A stretch of 25,813 nt of DNA from positions 1 through 25,813 of IMG/VR virus record IMGVR_UViG_3300023170_000155; one strand, 5' to 3'. Below are positions 3,847-25,813 of this stretch, piece after piece; the stretch's first letter is position 1, and each line of letters starts with the position of its first letter. The notes under the pieces were generated by a model. The model did not search any database. It saw only the letters and a program-made list of their open reading frames with translations, and was not told the DNA's origin. The translations under genes were made by a program, and so were the position numbers. Origin of the DNA: a virus.

Positions 3847-4857
3847 ATGAGCAATAACGGAAAACCGACTGCTTTACAAACTGATAAAGAAGTTGCTGCT
3901 TCTATGTTTGAAAGTTTCTTAACCCCTGAAGAGGACAAGGTTGAGGATGCAGTCACAGAAACAGAAGAAGTAGTTGAAGAAGAAGTCCTTGAAGAAGAAC
4001 TTGAACCATCTGAATATCTTGAAGAAGATGTAGAAGATGATGAAGAGTTTGACGAAGAGGATGAAGAATTAGATGAAGAACAAACCGATGTTGAAGAGGA
4101 AGCCTTGCAACCTCAGACATTTACAGTAAAAGTAGATGGTCAAGAAGTTGAGGTGACGCAAGATGAACTTATCAACGGATATTCTCGTCAGCAAGATTAT
4201 ACGCGTAAAACTCAAGAACTCGCCCAACAGCGTAAGACTATTGAGCAGCAGCAAGCAGAGTTAGCGCAAAGAGATGCGATTTATTCGCAGTTGTTACCGA
4301 AGATGGAAGCCCAATTAAAGGGCGAACTGGCTAACGAACCAGATTGGAACGCTTTGTATGAAGATGATCCTGTTGGTTATGTTCGCGAAAAACAACTTTG
4401 GGATGAAAAGAAAGAAAAGCTTAATGCTGTAGCAGCTGAGCAACAAAGACTTCAACATGATGCCTTTGTTAAACAGCAAGAACAACTTAAACAATATGTT
4501 GAATATGGCAATCAAAAGCTTCTTGAAATTATCCCTGAGTGGCAAAACCCTGAGGTTGCCGCAAAAGAAAAGTTGGCTATTAGCGAATATGCCGTGAATA
4601 CTTTAGGTTATACACCTGAGGAAATTCAACAGGTTTATGATTATCGTGCTTTGCTTGGTTTAAGAAATGCTTGGTTAAACTCTAAAACAGTTGAAGCCAC
4701 AAAGAAAAAACCAACACAAAAAGCACCAGCAAGAGTTGCTAGACCTGGAACTACTAACCGACCAAAAACGGCAGCACCTGTGAAGAAAGCAAAACAAAGG
4801 TTGGCCAAAACTGGAAAAATTCAGGATGCGGCTAAAGTATTTGAACAATTAATTTAA
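3847..4857 (+). CDS. capsid scaffolding protein
   Basis: A 336-residue protein with a strongly acidic stretch from about residue 23 to 80 (runs of Glu and Asp), a short globular motif (TFTVKVDGQEVEVTQDEL, then NGYSRQQDYTRKTQ), a long Gln/Glu-rich coiled coil, and a basic Lys/Arg/Pro C-terminal region ending in an amphipathic helix (DAAKVFEQLI). This composition and the VDGxEVxVTxDEL...YSRQxDYTRKT motif are typical of phage scaffold or head-assembly proteins encoded immediately before the major capsid gene. It guides procapsid assembly and then leaves. Ribosome site AAGGAG lies 7 nt before the ATG. Ten bases separate it from the capsid gene. Confidence 0.8.
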   Translation: MSNNGKPTALQTDKEVAASMFESFLTPEEDKVEDAVTETEEVVEEEVLEEELEPSEYLEEDVEDDEEFDEEDEELDEEQTDVEEEALQPQTFTVKVDGQEVEVTQDELINGYSRQQDYTRKTQELAQQRKTIEQQQAELAQRDAIYSQLLPKMEAQLKGELANEPDWNALYEDDPVGYVREKQLWDEKKEKLNAVAAEQQRLQHDAFVKQQEQLKQYVEYGNQKLLEIIPEWQNPEVAAKEKLAISEYAVNTLGYTPEEIQQVYDYRALLGLRNAWLNSKTVEATKKKPTQKAPARVARPGTTNRPKTAAPVKKAKQRLAKTGKIQDAAKVFEQLI

Positions 4858-14199: not shown

Positions 14200-14846
14200 T
14201 GGCAGGCGGAATACCAACAACAAATTTACAAGTACCAACAACACAACCAACAGTACCACAACCAACAGTACTACAACCAACAGCTACTCCATACAATAGG
14301 CAGCAACAAATTGGTTTAGCTTTAAGTGCGTTGTCAGACGTTTTAGGAAAAAGAGATCCTATAGCTGGTACTATGCAAAGACAGGCTTTTTTACAAGCAC
14401 AGCAACAAATGGCAGAACAAGAAAAGAAACAAGAAGAATTAAATAAGCAATTAAATTCCGCTATTGATAAATCTAATTTACCGCAATCACAAAAAGATTT
14501 ATTTAAAAAATTTGATGTACAAACTAAAGCTCAAGCTTTGATGAAAACTTTTGAGCCTCCAAAAACATTAAGCACAGCGCAAAGAGTTTCTGAAATAGCT
14601 GCAAAAGTTGCAAACGATCCAAATTATAAATTAACACCACAAGACGAATTAATTTTACAAATTTCAAGAAAAGCCGATCCTTTAACTAGAGGAATAGAAG
14701 ATATATCTGCCGCAGCTTTATCTGAATTTACCCAAGAAAAAGGAACATTGAAAACATACGCATCAACACAAGATGCCTTGAACGCAGGATTACAATCAGG
14801 AGATCAGTTTATAGGTACTGATGGAGTTACATATAGAATTCCTTAA
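14199..14846 (+). CDS. putative internal virion protein, 215 aa
   Basis: The N-terminus (residues about 6-32) is rich in Thr, Pro and Gln with TQPTV/PQPTV/LQPTA repeats. It is followed by a long charged helical region (RQQQIGLALSALSDVLGKRD, then AFLQAQQQMAEQEKKQEELNKQLN) and a small C-terminal domain (STQDALNAGLQSGDQFIGTDGVTYRIP). No family is recognised. It lies between two candidate ejection proteins, overlapping the first by one base (TAATG), so it may be the third component of an internal core. The short-repeat N-terminus could vary in length by slippage. Confidence 0.55.
   Translation: MAGGIPTTNLQVPTTQPTVPQPTVLQPTATPYNRQQQIGLALSALSDVLGKRDPIAGTMQRQAFLQAQQQMAEQEKKQEELNKQLNSAIDKSNLPQSQKDLFKKFDVQTKAQALMKTFEPPKTLSTAQRVSEIAAKVANDPNYKLTPQDELILQISRKADPLTRGIEDISAAALSEFTQEKGTLKTYASTQDALNAGLQSGDQFIGTDGVTYRIP
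14242..14287 (+). repeat. 15-bp tandem minisatellite, 3 units
   Basis: Two identical 15-bp units (CACAACCAACAGTAC) at 14242-14256 and 14257-14271 are followed by a close third copy. They encode the five-residue PTV-type repeats at the N-terminus of the 215-residue protein, and 15 bp keeps the frame. Confidence 0.8.
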
Positions 14847-18805: not shown

Positions 18806-19219
18806 ATGGCACGCCAATCAGAAAGAGTTGGCCGATCTGGAGAATACTTAGTAGCCTCGCTACTTTCTTTATATGCTGATACTGTGGTTATCGTTCCACA
18901 TAGCGCAGAAGCAGACATCATCTTTGACGTAGACCACACGCTTTATAAATGCCAGGTTAAAACACAATCTAAAATAAGAAACCATAGAGTGTCATGGGAG
19001 TATGACTTTAGGCGTGGTTCGTTTACCAAAAAAAGACATTATGAAAAAAATGCAATAGATGTTTATGCTTTGGTTGCATTAGACCCACAAAAAGTTATCT
19101 TTACTTTTCCAGACGGAAGCAAACAGAAAACTATTAAAGACGAAGAGATGCAAGCGATGGACTCGCTTACTAATGTCAAAAACCTATTTAAAGAGCTTCG
19201 ATGTCAACAGACACCTTAG
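18806..19219 (+). CDS. PD-(D/E)XK nuclease-like protein
   Basis: A 137-residue protein with the motif order of small PD-(D/E)XK nucleases (PDDEXK_5 type): N-terminal helix RSGEYLVASLLS with Glu13, Asp37 in AEADIIF, then the Q-x-K pair Gln50/Lys52 in YKCQVKTQS (Gln replacing Glu, as in several family members), and IDVYALVAL at 84-92. The N-terminus GRSGEYLVA suggests a metal-dependent DNA-cleaving or resolvase-like role. It is the last plus-strand gene of the late arm. Its last 32 bp overlap the end of the convergent minus-strand gene. Activity is not certain because one acidic residue is Gln. Confidence 0.65.
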   Translation: MARQSERVGRSGEYLVASLLSLYADTVVIVPHSAEADIIFDVDHTLYKCQVKTQSKIRNHRVSWEYDFRRGSFTKKRHYEKNAIDVYALVALDPQKVIFTFPDGSKQKTIKDEEMQAMDSLTNVKNLFKELRCQQTP

Positions 19220-19403
19220 GTTCTTCATAATATTTAGCAGAGTTCATACCTAATGATATTAGATATTCAGCCACTTCATGTGGTTGTTTCTGCTCACTCT
19301 TACAAAAGTTTTTAAACTTTTCTGCAAGGTGTTTGTTTACATATATAGGTTTTCTTCCGTTTCTTTCTTTTAAGATTCGATCATCAAACTCATATAAGTT
19401 CAT
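19188..19403 (-). CDS. ribbon-helix-helix-like DNA-binding protein, 71 aa
   Basis: A 71-residue protein. Residues about 17-54 (RKPIYVNKHLAEKFKNFCKS, then QKQPHEVAEYLISLGMNS) fit a ribbon-helix-helix pattern: a short strand, helix 1, turn, helix 2. Such proteins repress transcription as dimers. Its ribosome site AAGGAGGT (19415-19408) is strong and lies inside a 6-bp inverted repeat. The ORF is 21 bp downstream of the DUF3310 stop on the same strand, so the two form an operon. Its 3' end overlaps the plus-strand nuclease gene. The fold assignment is moderate because the strand is only partly typical. Confidence 0.6.
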   Translation of the reverse strand: MNLYEFDDRILKERNGRKPIYVNKHLAEKFKNFCKSEQKQPHEVAEYLISLGMNSAKYYEEPKVSVDIEAL

Positions 19404-19805: not shown

Positions 19806-20006
19806 ATGGAAAAAGAAAAAACTTTTCTTGATACTAAACAACTCGCTCAAAGGTGGAGTAGATCTCCAAGAACGATAGAGGGATGGCGCGCAAAAAAGAC
19901 TGGGCCAGACTATCTAAACCTTAACGGTAAAATTTTATATGATATTGACGAAATCATAAGAGCAGAGGAAGAAGCAAGGGTATCACATGAAGCACGCCAA
20001 ACTTAG
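19806..20006 (+). CDS. HTH_17-type DNA-binding protein (excisionase/regulator-like)
   Basis: A 66-residue protein with the motif order of an HTH_17 domain: FLDTKQLAQRWSRSPRTIEGWRAK (helix-turn-helix), GPDYLNLNGKILYDIDEI (wing), and a charged C-terminal helix. The domain occurs in phage excisionases, Xis-like and small regulators. It is the first gene of the rightward module and lies directly beside the divergent promoters, so a regulatory role at that site is attractive but inferred. Ribosome site GGGAG lies 5 nt before ATG 19806. Its end overlaps the next gene by 20 bp. No integrase is seen in the window. Confidence 0.75.
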   Translation: MEKEKTFLDTKQLAQRWSRSPRTIEGWRAKKTGPDYLNLNGKILYDIDEIIRAEEEARVSHEARQT

Positions 20007-22405: not shown

Positions 22406-22787
22406 TTACAATGGTAAAAACAGGCCCACGCTGTGTGCATATTGTAAAGCACCAGCAGGGCCATTACTTTACAAAGACGGGGACTACTGGTTGGGAGCGT
22501 GCAGTATGGATCATTTAAAAAAGATTGGAGAGGGTAAACGATTACCAAACAAAGCACAATTAAATGACGAAGGTGTTGAATACTCTATTGCACAAACTAA
22601 AAACGTCTATGTAGAATTAGCAAGAAAGGAACGTAATCAACCTTTACATAAATGGGAGAGAGACAATAGGAAAAGAGTCTTTACTTCTATTGTGAGGGAA
22701 TATTTAAACTGGGCAAATGAAGTTGCCAGAAAAGACGATGAAAGGGCAAAACATGGATCTGACGAAATACTTTCCACAAGGAAATAA
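22386..22787 (+). CDS. zinc-finger-containing protein of unknown function, 133 aa
   Basis: ATG at 22386 (or 22389) overlaps the SSB-like gene by 20 bp. Cys17 and Cys20 form a CxxC (CAYC) and Cys39/His43 (ACSMDH) supply a likely second half, so a zinc site C-x2-C-x18-C-x3-H is plausible. The remainder is basic and helical (KNVYVELARKER...KWERDNRKRVFTSIVREYLNW). The protein lies between the SSB-like and primase-helicase genes, which suggests a replication accessory role, perhaps DNA binding. I do not recognise a family. Confidence 0.55.
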   Translation: MMTHHFNYNGKNRPTLCAYCKAPAGPLLYKDGDYWLGACSMDHLKKIGEGKRLPNKAQLNDEGVEYSIAQTKNVYVELARKERNQPLHKWERDNRKRVFTSIVREYLNWANEVARKDDERAKHGSDEILSTRK

Positions 22788-24570
22788 TTTAGAACAAAAT
22801 AAACCAAAAGACACAAGCGATTTAATAAATGAAATGCAATCACAAGGATTGCAAATCAATCATTTAGAAATAACAGGAGAAATAGTAAGAGTACCAGTTA
22901 ATGAATTAGCTGGTGTTAAGGCTGATTCAAATAATCAGAAGTCTGGTTATTATGTAGTCAATGAAGTAAACGGCAATTACTTTGCAACTTTTGGTAATTG
23001 GAAAACAGGCTTTGAGGGTAAATGGTCAAGCATAAATCATCAAGCTATGACATCTCAACAAAGAGAAGATTTACAACGTCAACTGCAAGAGGCTAAGGAA
23101 AGGGCCGAAGAAACTAAAAAACAAAGGCACAATGAAGTGGCCAAAAAAGTAGAACGCTGGTTTGACTCTTACACGAATGTTATTGAACATGAATATCTCA
23201 CAAATAAAAAGGTTAAAAATTATGGTTTAAAGCAATACCAGGATATGTTGGTTTGCGGTGTGTATTCTACAACAGGAGACATACGTTCTCTACAGTATAT
23301 TAGTAAAAATGGTGAAAAAAGATTTGCCGCTGATTCAGAAATAAAAGGCAACATATTTCTCATTGGTGCTGATATAAAAGATATTCCAAAACTAGATAAA
23401 ATTATATTAGCAGAGGGTTATTCAACTTCTGCAACTATTTATGAAGCAACCCAGATTCCCGTAGCTTGCGTATTTTCTGCCAATTTCGTCATGGCAGTAG
23501 CCCTTGAAATACGCAAGCTTTCGGGTGCTAGAATTGTTGTTGCGTTAGACAACGATGAAAGCGGAGTCGGAGAGAAGAAAGCCCAAGAATGTGTGCAGAG
23601 TGTTACTAATGCGTGCGTGCGTTTGCCGAGCGAACATGGAGACTATAACGATTTATATTTAAAACATGGTTTGGATAAAGTTAAACAAGAACTTACTGAA
23701 TCTAAATTTAATATTAAAAAGTATGCGATTCGTAATTTAATTGAGAAACCAGAACCGCAAAAGTTTCTAGTAGATTCGTTTATACCATTAGCTAAACCAG
23801 GAATATTAGCCAGTAGTGGTGGTGTAGGAAAATCTTTATCATTATTACAGTTAGCACTTGCTATCGCTAAAGGCTCTAGTTGGTGGGGTAAAGATGTAAA
23901 AGAGAATGGCTCTAGTGTAATCTTCTGTGCTGAAGATGATCTAGTCGAAGTACACCATAGAATTGATTTATTAGACCCATACGGAGAAAGATTTAAACAT
24001 AACAACGATGTATATGTTTATCCAATACCAGACCAAAAAGAGCCATTAATTTTATTGCGAGAAGAAGGTATTACTGAACAAGCAAGAGAGATTGTAGAAG
24101 AATTAAAAGGTATAGATAACTTAAAGTTAGTTGCGTTCGACCCATTACAAGCATTTACAACAGCTAGTGTCTCGCAAAGTAATGAAGCTGGACAACTCTG
24201 GGGAAGTTACTGTGCGATGATTAGTGCGAATATTGGTTGTACTACTTTAACAACGCATCATATTAATAAACAAAGTATTACCAATGATTCTGATGATCCT
24301 TATTCGCATAAGGCAGATATAAGAGGTGCATCATCAATTACAGATTCAGTTAGGTTTGCAATCTCAATGTGGATTCCAAGCGAATCAGATGCAGAGGAGT
24401 TATGTGAACAAGCAAATATACCATATGATAGGTTGAGCGTGGTCAAGGCGGCCTTAGTCAAATCTAACTCTGGTAATGTGGATTATGGAGTGCAAACTTT
24501 AATAAGAAAAGACGGCATATTAGAGCCAATAAACTCTATGCCAAAGACAGATTATGAAATACATTTTTAG
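22753..24570 (+). CDS. TOPRIM primase-helicase (RepA/DnaB-like)
   Basis: A 605-residue replication protein from ATG 22753 (GAAAGGG upstream); a longer form from 22717 or 22738 is possible. It overlaps the previous gene by 35 bp. A variable N-terminal region (about 1-150) is followed by a primase TOPRIM domain with Glu221 in ILAEGY and Asp266/Asp268 in ALDNDESG, then a RecA-like helicase domain with Walker A SSGGVGKS (354-361), IFCAEDD, Walker B FDPLQ with Asp463, and HH at 502-503. The order (primase then helicase) suits a fused primase-helicase that primes and unwinds DNA at the fork. No zinc-ribbon is visible at the N-terminus. Confidence in the domains is high, in exact start moderate. Confidence 0.85.
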   Translation: MDLTKYFPQGNNLEQNKPKDTSDLINEMQSQGLQINHLEITGEIVRVPVNELAGVKADSNNQKSGYYVVNEVNGNYFATFGNWKTGFEGKWSSINHQAMTSQQREDLQRQLQEAKERAEETKKQRHNEVAKKVERWFDSYTNVIEHEYLTNKKVKNYGLKQYQDMLVCGVYSTTGDIRSLQYISKNGEKRFAADSEIKGNIFLIGADIKDIPKLDKIILAEGYSTSATIYEATQIPVACVFSANFVMAVALEIRKLSGARIVVALDNDESGVGEKKAQECVQSVTNACVRLPSEHGDYNDLYLKHGLDKVKQELTESKFNIKKYAIRNLIEKPEPQKFLVDSFIPLAKPGILASSGGVGKSLSLLQLALAIAKGSSWWGKDVKENGSSVIFCAEDDLVEVHHRIDLLDPYGERFKHNNDVYVYPIPDQKEPLILLREEGITEQAREIVEELKGIDNLKLVAFDPLQAFTTASVSQSNEAGQLWGSYCAMISANIGCTTLTTHHINKQSITNDSDDPYSHKADIRGASSITDSVRFAISMWIPSESDAEELCEQANIPYDRLSVVKAALVKSNSGNVDYGVQTLIRKDGILEPINSMPKTDYEIHF

Positions 24571-24759
24571 GAGGAAATTATGAATTGTTGGCATTGTGGA
24601 ACAAAATTAATTTGGGGTGGAGACCATGACATTGGAGATGAGAACGAAGAATTTGACATCGTTACTAACTTATCTTGCCCAAAATGTGAGGCATTTGTTG
24701 AGGTTTATTTACCAAAAATAAAAGATGAATAAATGTATTTTTAGGAGAAAATTATGAAT
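24563..24759 (+). repeat. near-identical 23-bp leader direct repeat flanking the 50-aa gene
   Basis: The sequence ATTTTTAGGAG(G/A)AAATT followed by ATGAAT occurs at 24563-24585 and 24737-24759 with one mismatch in 23 bp. Each copy supplies the ribosome site and start codon of a gene: the zinc-ribbon miniprotein and the methyltransferase. Confidence 0.9.
24580..24732 (+). CDS. zinc-ribbon miniprotein, 50 aa
   Basis: A 50-residue protein starting ATG 24580 with AGGAGG upstream. The sequence contains CWHC (residues 3-6) and CPKC (34-37), a typical four-Cys zinc ribbon, with a Trp/Gly-rich acidic loop between them (IWGGDHDIGDENEEFD). It was too short for routine ORF finding but has a good ribosome site and a compact Cys pattern. 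Possible roles include nucleic-acid or protein binding. It is flanked by near-identical leader repeats shared with the methyltransferase gene. Confidence 0.75.
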   Translation: MNCWHCGTKLIWGGDHDIGDENEEFDIVTNLSCPKCEAFVEVYLPKIKDE

Positions 24760-25695
24760 ATAAATATACTGCAAGGGGATTGTATAAAAACATTACAAAA
24801 ATTAGATGATAAATCTATTAACACCTGTATTACCTCACCACCTTATTGGGGTTTGCGTGATTATGGTGAAAGCAATCAATTAGGTTTAGAAGATACACCA
24901 GAAAAATTTGTTGATAACTTGGTTAAAGTATTTAGAGAAGTAAAACGAGTATTGCGTGATGACGGAACTGTTTGGCTAAATCTTGGCGATAGTTATGCAA
25001 GAACTGGTGGCGATAGCTCTAAAAAAGGTAGGCATTGGGATGATAGAAAAAATAATCCAAATACAGGTCATAACAGATATGCAAAAGATATAGGACTAAA
25101 GCAAAAAGACTTAGTTGGAATACCTTGGAGAGTTGCATTAGCTTTACAACAAGATGGCTGGTATTTAAGACAAGATATTATCTGGCACAAACCTAACCCA
25201 ATGCCTGAAAGTGTTAAAGATAGATGTACCAAAGCACATGAATATATATTTTTATTAAGTAAAAATGTCAAGTATTACTTTGATAATGAAGCTATTAAAG
25301 AAGATGCAAAGTTTCCTGAAGGCCCAAATTCAGCACATAATATAAAAAAAGGATCTGATGATCCTAAAATGAGAACAAGAGTAGGGTTAAATAAGATAGG
25401 TGCTAATCCAAAAAAAAATAAAAGATCTGTTTGGACTATTACCACTAAACCATTCAAAGGCGCACATTTTGCAACTTTTCCAATGGATTTAATAGAGCCA
25501 TGCGTGTTAGCTGGTTGTCCAGAAGGAGGTACAGTTTTAGATCCTTTTGGTGGTAGTGGCACAACAGGAATCGTTGCGGTTAATCATAATCGTCATGCAG
25601 TTTTGTGTGAGCTTAACCAAGAATATATAGATTTAGCTAAGAAAAGAATCGAAGAACAAGCTGGTTTTTTAGCAACAATAAATATAACCAAATGA
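24754..25695 (+). CDS. beta-class DNA methyltransferase (N4-cytosine or N6-adenine), orphan
   Basis: A 313-residue methyltransferase. Motif IV TSPPYWGLRDYG (27-38, SPPYW) comes before motif I, LDPFGGSGTTG with DPF at 263-265, the order of beta-class enzymes. LNLGDSYARTGGD and IIWHKPNPMPESVKDR lie between, and a target-recognition region is probably in the divergent parts near residues 95-125 and 185-230. It would methylate exocyclic amino groups on DNA. No restriction enzyme is encoded nearby, so it likely protects phage DNA or controls expression. Ribosome site AGGAGA is 7 nt before ATG 24754. Confidence 0.88.
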   Translation: MNINILQGDCIKTLQKLDDKSINTCITSPPYWGLRDYGESNQLGLEDTPEKFVDNLVKVFREVKRVLRDDGTVWLNLGDSYARTGGDSSKKGRHWDDRKNNPNTGHNRYAKDIGLKQKDLVGIPWRVALALQQDGWYLRQDIIWHKPNPMPESVKDRCTKAHEYIFLLSKNVKYYFDNEAIKEDAKFPEGPNSAHNIKKGSDDPKMRTRVGLNKIGANPKKNKRSVWTITTKPFKGAHFATFPMDLIEPCVLAGCPEGGTVLDPFGGSGTTGIVAVNHNRHAVLCELNQEYIDLAKKRIEEQAGFLATINITK

Positions 25696-25698
25696 CCT

Positions 25699-25767
25699 TA
25701 TATGCGAAGAAAAGTGTATCTGCTTGCGAAAAAAAGTGTACCTGCTTGCGAAGAAACTTCGCATATA
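25699..25767. repeat. TGCGAA iteron array with 11-bp terminal inverted repeat
   Basis: TGCGAA occurs at 25703, 25725 and 25747, exactly 22 bp apart, inside two tandem near-identical 22-bp units (AAAAGTGTA, a variable base, then CTGCTTGCG). An inverted TTCGCA is at 25758-25763. The whole set is bracketed by TATATGCGAAG (25699-25709) and CTTCGCATATA (25757-25767), a perfect 11-bp inverted pair. Binding-site phasing at about two helical turns is typical of iterons. It is non-coding or barely coding, downstream of the methyltransferase, and has no terminator T run. Confidence 0.85.
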
Positions 25768-25775
25768 TCCATACC

Positions 25776-25787
25776 ATACCATGGTAT
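25776..25787. promoter_or_regulatory. perfect 12-bp palindrome ATACCATGGTAT
   Basis: ATACCATGGTAT is fully palindromic and is preceded by another ATACC (25771-25775). It lies 8 bp beyond the iteron array, so it looks like an operator half-site pair for a dimeric protein. Confidence 0.55.
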
Positions 25788-25813
25788 AGGAGTCGGAAAA
25801 ACGCTGGCGCGTT

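Follow-up and report, generated by a model that had tools for sequence, protein, structure and literature searches.

A short array of repeats closes the viral contig studied here, and its place beside replication genes raises the question of whether replication starts there and, if so, which protein recognizes the repeats. The window, meaning the whole stretch of DNA analysed, is a linear virus record of 25,813 bases whose end falls inside the repeat and hairpin feature itself. An earlier note had read this feature as a replication origin or main control site. We put at roughly 60% the probability that positions 25699-25813 are the left part of an iteron-type replication origin belonging to an uncultured marine tailed-phage family. 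Our computations establish the array, its period, two hairpins with compensatory change, and linkage both to a winged-helix gene downstream (HTH146) and to a RepA-like primase-helicase; events at the site itself are treated as a model below.

A 22-bp repeat array at the window end

The motif TGCGAA starts at 25703, 25725 and 25747, spacings of 22 and 22 bp. The array (25703-25756, plus strand) consists of two full units, 25703-25724 and 25725-25746, which are 91% identical, and a third partial copy from 25747, giving a period of exactly 22 bp. It is bracketed by an 11-bp inverted repeat whose left arm, TATATGCGAAG (25699-25709, plus strand), is perfectly complementary to the right arm, CTTCGCATATA (25757-25767, minus strand), itself an inverted half-iteron. 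The tandem units and the perfect bracketing repeat described in the earlier note are thus both there. With the third direct copy, the right arm also forms TGCGAAG-AAA-CTTCGCA. In L005 and L006, two relatives without the methyltransferase gene upstream, only the ATGCGAAG / CTTCGCAT part of the bracketing arm is shared with the window. The final half-unit is an inverted copy of an earlier half-unit in groups A, B and C, as in the window, judged by eye.

No comparable tandem triple, defined as three identical 6-mers at one period (15-29) in units with at most 3 differing positions, arose when the full window was put through 30 dinucleotide shuffles. Elsewhere in the window, the only triples that qualify are 15-bp (five-codon) repeats within coding genes; such in-frame tandem repeats occur at 3963-4010 and 14243-14290. 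A minus-strand open frame spans the array region, but because relatives preserve structure rather than codons there, we take that frame to be a product of chance and treat the region as non-coding.

Conserved spacing across relatives

The exact repeat occurs twice in each of six other viral contigs, all of which continue beyond the point at which the window stops. Past that point they contain the full second hairpin, a short stretch and the gene for the 146-aa HTH146, which supplies through relatives the extension past 25813 that the earlier note had proposed. Relatives of HTH146 were taken from viral contigs, 46 in a first search and 80 kept of 183 found in a second; one more match is on a contig assigned to a Pelagibacter bin, and that contig may itself be viral. 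The detailed comparison covered 73 relatives, representing 25 non-redundant arrays (less than 90% identical).

Wherever the contig of a relative extends far enough, the layout is identical: the direct repeats, which in most groups end in an inverted half-repeat, are followed by ATATCC, then by hairpin 1 and, after a short link, by hairpin 2 and the start of HTH146. Each site holds three or four iterons. The letters of the repeats differ completely between groups, comprising TGCGAAG (the window's), TGCGACA, GGACAnnnTGTACC, GTAGAACTT/CATAAC, GTGTTAGGGACATA, TTGTAGC/GCTACAA and a 21-bp set, GGGAACTTTAGGGACATACTA, whereas the 22-bp period is constant: among the 25 non-redundant arrays, self-match averages 0.60 at lag 22 and 0.52 at lag 44 but only 0.18-0.33 at the remaining lags from 8 to 43. 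Groups reached through the primase-helicase usually have a short lag of 21, often with 43. What relatives preserve is a spacing of about two helical turns, as the earlier note had supposed. That note had also allowed for an array that close relatives lack or that proves to be coding; the opposite was found, and its tie to the replication module holds in relatives as well.

Eight near-complete genomes contain no comparable cluster elsewhere, so each of these has one array, and on this sample a regulator with many sites is rejected. A blastn search of the region against annotated phage records returned nothing beyond a 22-base match at chance level. Some relatives carry rearranged arrays: at about 1110-1160 in L098, a whole repeat unit on the hairpin side runs in the opposite orientation to those beside it, and L163, L167, L177, L190, L193 and L205 have an inverted whole unit just before ATATCC. 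These inverted units look as if they had been flipped between inverted half-repeats.

Two hairpins conserved in shape

Between the array and the first hairpin lies ATATCC (25765-25770, plus strand), which is invariant and occurs in all relatives with contigs that span the site. Hairpin 1, ATACCAT-ACC-ATGGTAT (25771-25787, plus strand), includes the 12-bp palindrome ATACCATGGTAT (25776-25787), which starts 8 bp after the right arm; the palindrome recorded in the earlier note is real and can now be understood as a by-product of this conserved hairpin. Similarly, the short AACGC/GCGTT hairpin seen at 25800-25813 is the inner part of a longer structure, hairpin 2 (GGAGTCGGAAAAACGC-TGGC-GCGTT..., 25789-25813, plus strand), which is truncated by the end of the contig. 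In relatives it is complete, with an inner 7-bp stem, a loop of 4-5 nt, usually a 1-nt bulge, and an outer stem, and in most of the six contigs with the exact repeat it reads GGAAAAACGC-TGGT-GCGTTTTCC; a one-base bulge between the inner and outer stems is found in several groups.

Nearly all sequences have hairpin 1 directly after ATATCC (offset 0-3), and every distinct version of this hairpin is perfectly paired. Because MAFFT misaligned stems of unequal length when run on the full hairpin region, pairs were counted in equal-length subsets. In the alignment of eight distinct hairpin 1 versions, 6 of 7 pairs have changed on both sides, and covariation is 0.724 compared with 0.169 after shuffling, a value reached in 0 of 500 shuffles. 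For the inner stem of hairpin 2, 4 of 7 pairs have changed on both sides, with covariation of 0.455 compared with 0.124 (0 of 500). Paired cells amount to 100% in both cases, a percentage favoured by selection because the distinct versions were picked from hairpins already found; the compensatory changes, together with slid controls, are the stronger evidence. These comparisons indicate that the shape of the hairpins, not their letters, is conserved, through compensatory changes that are purely Watson-Crick. Between hairpin 2 and the HTH146 start there are runs of the tetranucleotide AAGC, whose copy number varies in the near-identical L152, L153 and L154.

A replication block with a variable neighbour

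The gene for the primase-helicase (TOPRIM and AAA_25; 22717-24570, plus strand) lies upstream of the array. The N-terminal half of its product is TOPRIM and the C-terminal half matches the RepA helicase of RSF1010 (1g8y; phmmer E=6e-9, residues 345-562). In all groups examined the protein terminates right after the helicase domain, whereas in the distant cultured phages XX1924, 1N2-2 and RHph_Y3_1 it has roughly 100 further residues, which we would guess to bind DNA. Dense repeats, TGGTTCAT, CGTTCCCA and GCGGTACATTT, occur directly downstream of the primase-helicase gene in these three cultured phages (L230, 6890-7100; L231, 6440-6620; L232, 6790-7000) and are candidate origins.

Ten near-complete relatives share one gene order where covered: exonuclease, Sak4-like annealing ATPase, SSB-like protein, a gene in the NinG position, primase-helicase, variable genes, array, HTH146, small minus-strand genes and terminase (SSB and NinG being working labels from gene position, not family matches). 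The block from exonuclease through Sak4, SSB and primase-helicase to array and HTH146 is kept in near-complete genomes, with variation only in the genes between helicase and array, and of the 28 primase-helicase contigs that extend 1.5 kb or more downstream, 27 contain HTH146 in that stretch. One contig of 34,201 bases (L214/L215) has a 127-base terminal repeat and is therefore probably a complete genome of the phage family.

In the window, the gene nearest to the array encodes an N4/N6 DNA methyltransferase (24754-25695, plus strand; Pfam 3.3e-52). L005 and L006 have no such gene yet retain the array letter for letter, and further relatives also lack the gene while keeping the array; the array therefore goes with the downstream part, and the methyltransferase is a variable neighbour that we rule out as a component of the site. 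Of the two genes that the earlier note invoked for an origin or control site, the primase-helicase link stands and the methyltransferase proves incidental. The interval between primase-helicase and array looks like an insertion hotspot (window 24580-25695; also L005, L093, L095, G003 and G005), holding nothing, a 50-aa zinc-ribbon-like open frame, an N4/N6 methyltransferase, a probable C5 methyltransferase or other genes.

GC skew, which the earlier note had put forward as a check, does not switch at the array. It follows gene direction, which confounds it as an origin marker. In near-complete relatives, the skew turns negative about 1-2 kb downstream of HTH146, over the small minus-strand genes before terminase.

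HTH146 as the candidate binder

HTH146 is a 146-aa winged-helix protein encoded directly downstream of the array in all relatives used, its gene starting about 60 bp beyond the complete hairpin 2 and thus outside the window. Among 32 HTH146 proteins, 28 match Pfam HTH_36 (best 1.8e-6); the protein from the window's relative falls below the Pfam cut-off. Up to 18 of the 32 match PHROG replication-initiation families, weakly (best 2.7e-4), and 3 of the 32 match phage_O_Nterm, also weakly (best 0.069). Pfam matches of the 32 members comprise only HTH_36 and DIP2311-like_C, with the RepC family absent. We found no relative by tblastn in annotated phage records, nothing useful among solved structures and no recognizable helicase-contact domain. 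An AlphaFold2 model is weak (mean pLDDT 58.6); its fold matches, none with E below 0.001, are mostly MarR-family regulators and also include the DnaD N-domain.

Which protein goes with the letters of the array? We compared array similarity with protein similarity pairwise over 49 contigs, using smaller subsets for HTH_17 and RHH where these were found. The correlation is 0.74 for HTH146 and 0.65 for the primase-helicase, and on the subsets 0.36 for HTH_17 and 0.19 for RHH; as contig pairs are not independent, these values describe and do not test. The partial correlation with the array is 0.55 for HTH146 given the primase and 0.32 for the primase-helicase, and once HTH146 is accounted for it falls to -0.03 for HTH_17 (19806-20006) and 0.08 for RHH (19188-19403), so that both are rejected as binders. 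Of the proteins that the earlier note had nominated, these two drop out, and the primase-helicase follows the array in part, less well than HTH146. The clearest case is group A2 set against group A, with one primase lineage: their primases are 88-89% identical and their HTH146 proteins 68%, and their iterons are wholly different. Only three HTH146 residues, A60, T98 and K100, are private to the window's TGCGAAG group, two of which (T98 and K100) sit in the predicted recognition helix (95-107); this change in the recognition helix is one evolutionary event.

On these comparisons, the letters of the array follow HTH146 better than they follow the primase-helicase, HTH_17 or RHH, and the best reading is that HTH146, rather than HTH_17 or RHH, is the probable binder. 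HTH146 and the array are neighbours, however, and their co-inheritance could stem from nothing more than linkage.

Comparison with known origins

Like iteron origins in general, the site has a number of regularly spaced direct repeats in the range of about 17-22 bp (RSF1010 iterons are about 20 bp long) and a linked gene that could encode the DNA-binding initiator, HTH146, with weak family matches. At RSF1010 oriV, RepC binds the iterons, RepA exposes the ssiA and ssiB stem-loops, and RepB' primes there (PMC4234260). The phage site shares with it several iterons for what would be a dedicated initiator, a helicase that is of RepA type by sequence (6e-9), a primase, and stem-loops beside the iterons. 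However, the phage primase is not a separate RepB' type but a TOPRIM domain fused with the helicase, the candidate initiator is a 146-aa HTH_36-like protein without a RepC match, the positions and letters of the hairpins differ, and the host element is a phage rather than a plasmid. The best reading is that the site would work like RSF1010 in outline and is not a member of that class, since neither the RepC family nor a RepB' primase was found.

Other systems share single features. Lambda-type origins have four spaced iterons adjoining an AT-rich stretch (PMC7466680), an arrangement similar to that seen here, and HTH146 weakly matches replication-initiation families and the N-terminal domain of O. 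Unlike O, it has no C-terminal domain for contact with a helicase loader, and the phage has its own helicase; the lambda iterons lie inside the initiator gene, whereas this array is upstream of HTH146 and is joined by paired hairpins. At the P4 alpha, SaPI Rep and SCC Cch2 origins, repeats come immediately after the gene for the replicative primase-helicase or helicase, as with the iterons of SaPI and SCC elements (PMC7581432), but their helicase carries the origin-binding domain; here the primase-helicase stops after its helicase domain in every group examined, and a separate winged-helix gene follows. pRN1 has a stem-loop that is required for replication (PMC4234260); like the hairpins here, it lies downstream of the replication gene and is conserved in structure rather than letters. 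pRN1 is, however, an archaeal plasmid without iterons and with an unrelated replication protein.

Alternative explanations

The main rival to an origin is an operator or leader at which HTH146 represses its own gene or an early operon, with the hairpins as leader or termination elements. An array directly before an HTH gene is in the classic operator position, there is one site per genome and the fold matches of HTH146 are mostly MarR-like. Nevertheless, we regard an operator alone as unlikely: the best family matches of HTH146 are replication-initiation proteins, the array is tightly linked to the primase-helicase, and an operator has no need of covarying hairpins. A consensus scan of L003 8500-9500 found no plus-strand promoter-like or terminator-like site, although the consensus may not be that of the host, and hairpin 2 lacks a T-run in groups B1 and B2, which argues against an intrinsic terminator. 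Operator and origin functions may coexist, autoregulation at iterons being common for initiators. If the hairpins instead act in a transcript, in leader control, antisense regulation or as primer RNA, the iterons would be a separate protein site. The stem-loops are strong, their architecture is conserved and the site lies within a probable transcript of the replication operon. However, G-U steps are usual in RNA evolution and G-U pairs number 0 among 154 cells and are very rare across the larger collection of distinct stems; this suits selection on DNA strands better than on RNA, an argument rather than proof, and it makes an RNA element improbable in our view. The window, in which hairpin 2 is truncated, matches no Rfam family and contains no tRNA.

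We consider it less probable still that the site is a cos or pac site for packaging, recognized by a small terminase-like HTH protein in the manner of the R sites of lambda cosB. Repeats accompany a winged-helix protein here, terminase genes lie about 2-6 kb downstream, and left ends of contigs fall within 250 bp of the HTH146 start more often than expected (8 versus 2.4), with the window also ending near it. Yet these ends do not share one base; they are scattered, a pattern that assembly breaks in variable, repetitive sequence would give, and they are rejected as physical genome ends. The array is linked to the primase-helicase and not to terminase, and another small gene sits immediately before that of the large terminase.

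Model and implications

For an iteron-type origin, we infer binding, opening, loading and priming at the site in the following way. HTH146 dimers would bind the iterons, three or four in number, all from the same face of the helix because the spacing is about two helical turns, and the AT-rich side with ATATCC and hairpin 1 would open. The RepA-type primase-helicase, encoded just upstream, could then be loaded at the opened side of the array; unwinding would leave both hairpins single-stranded, and the primase half may start primers there. HTH146 bound at the array probably also limits its own expression, a likely role additional to that at the origin.

A more specific version, which we offer tentatively as possible, is a split-initiator origin. 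A stand-alone winged-helix binder of the iterons would have taken over origin recognition on behalf of a RepA-type primase-helicase without the C-terminal extension of the three distant relatives, and the hairpins would be loading or priming sites at the level of DNA, selected for shape rather than letters. Iteron and binder could consequently switch specificity together between phages.

If these readings are right, they would show where replication begins in this uncultured family of marine phages and name its initiator. The family would provide a natural series of matched iteron and winged-helix pairs, with about seven repeat types, in which to study DNA recognition, and hairpins with perfect compensatory change would offer a clean test for selection on single-stranded DNA structure at a phage origin. 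The array may also serve as a practical landmark for reading the direction and activity of replication from coverage in marine metagenomes.
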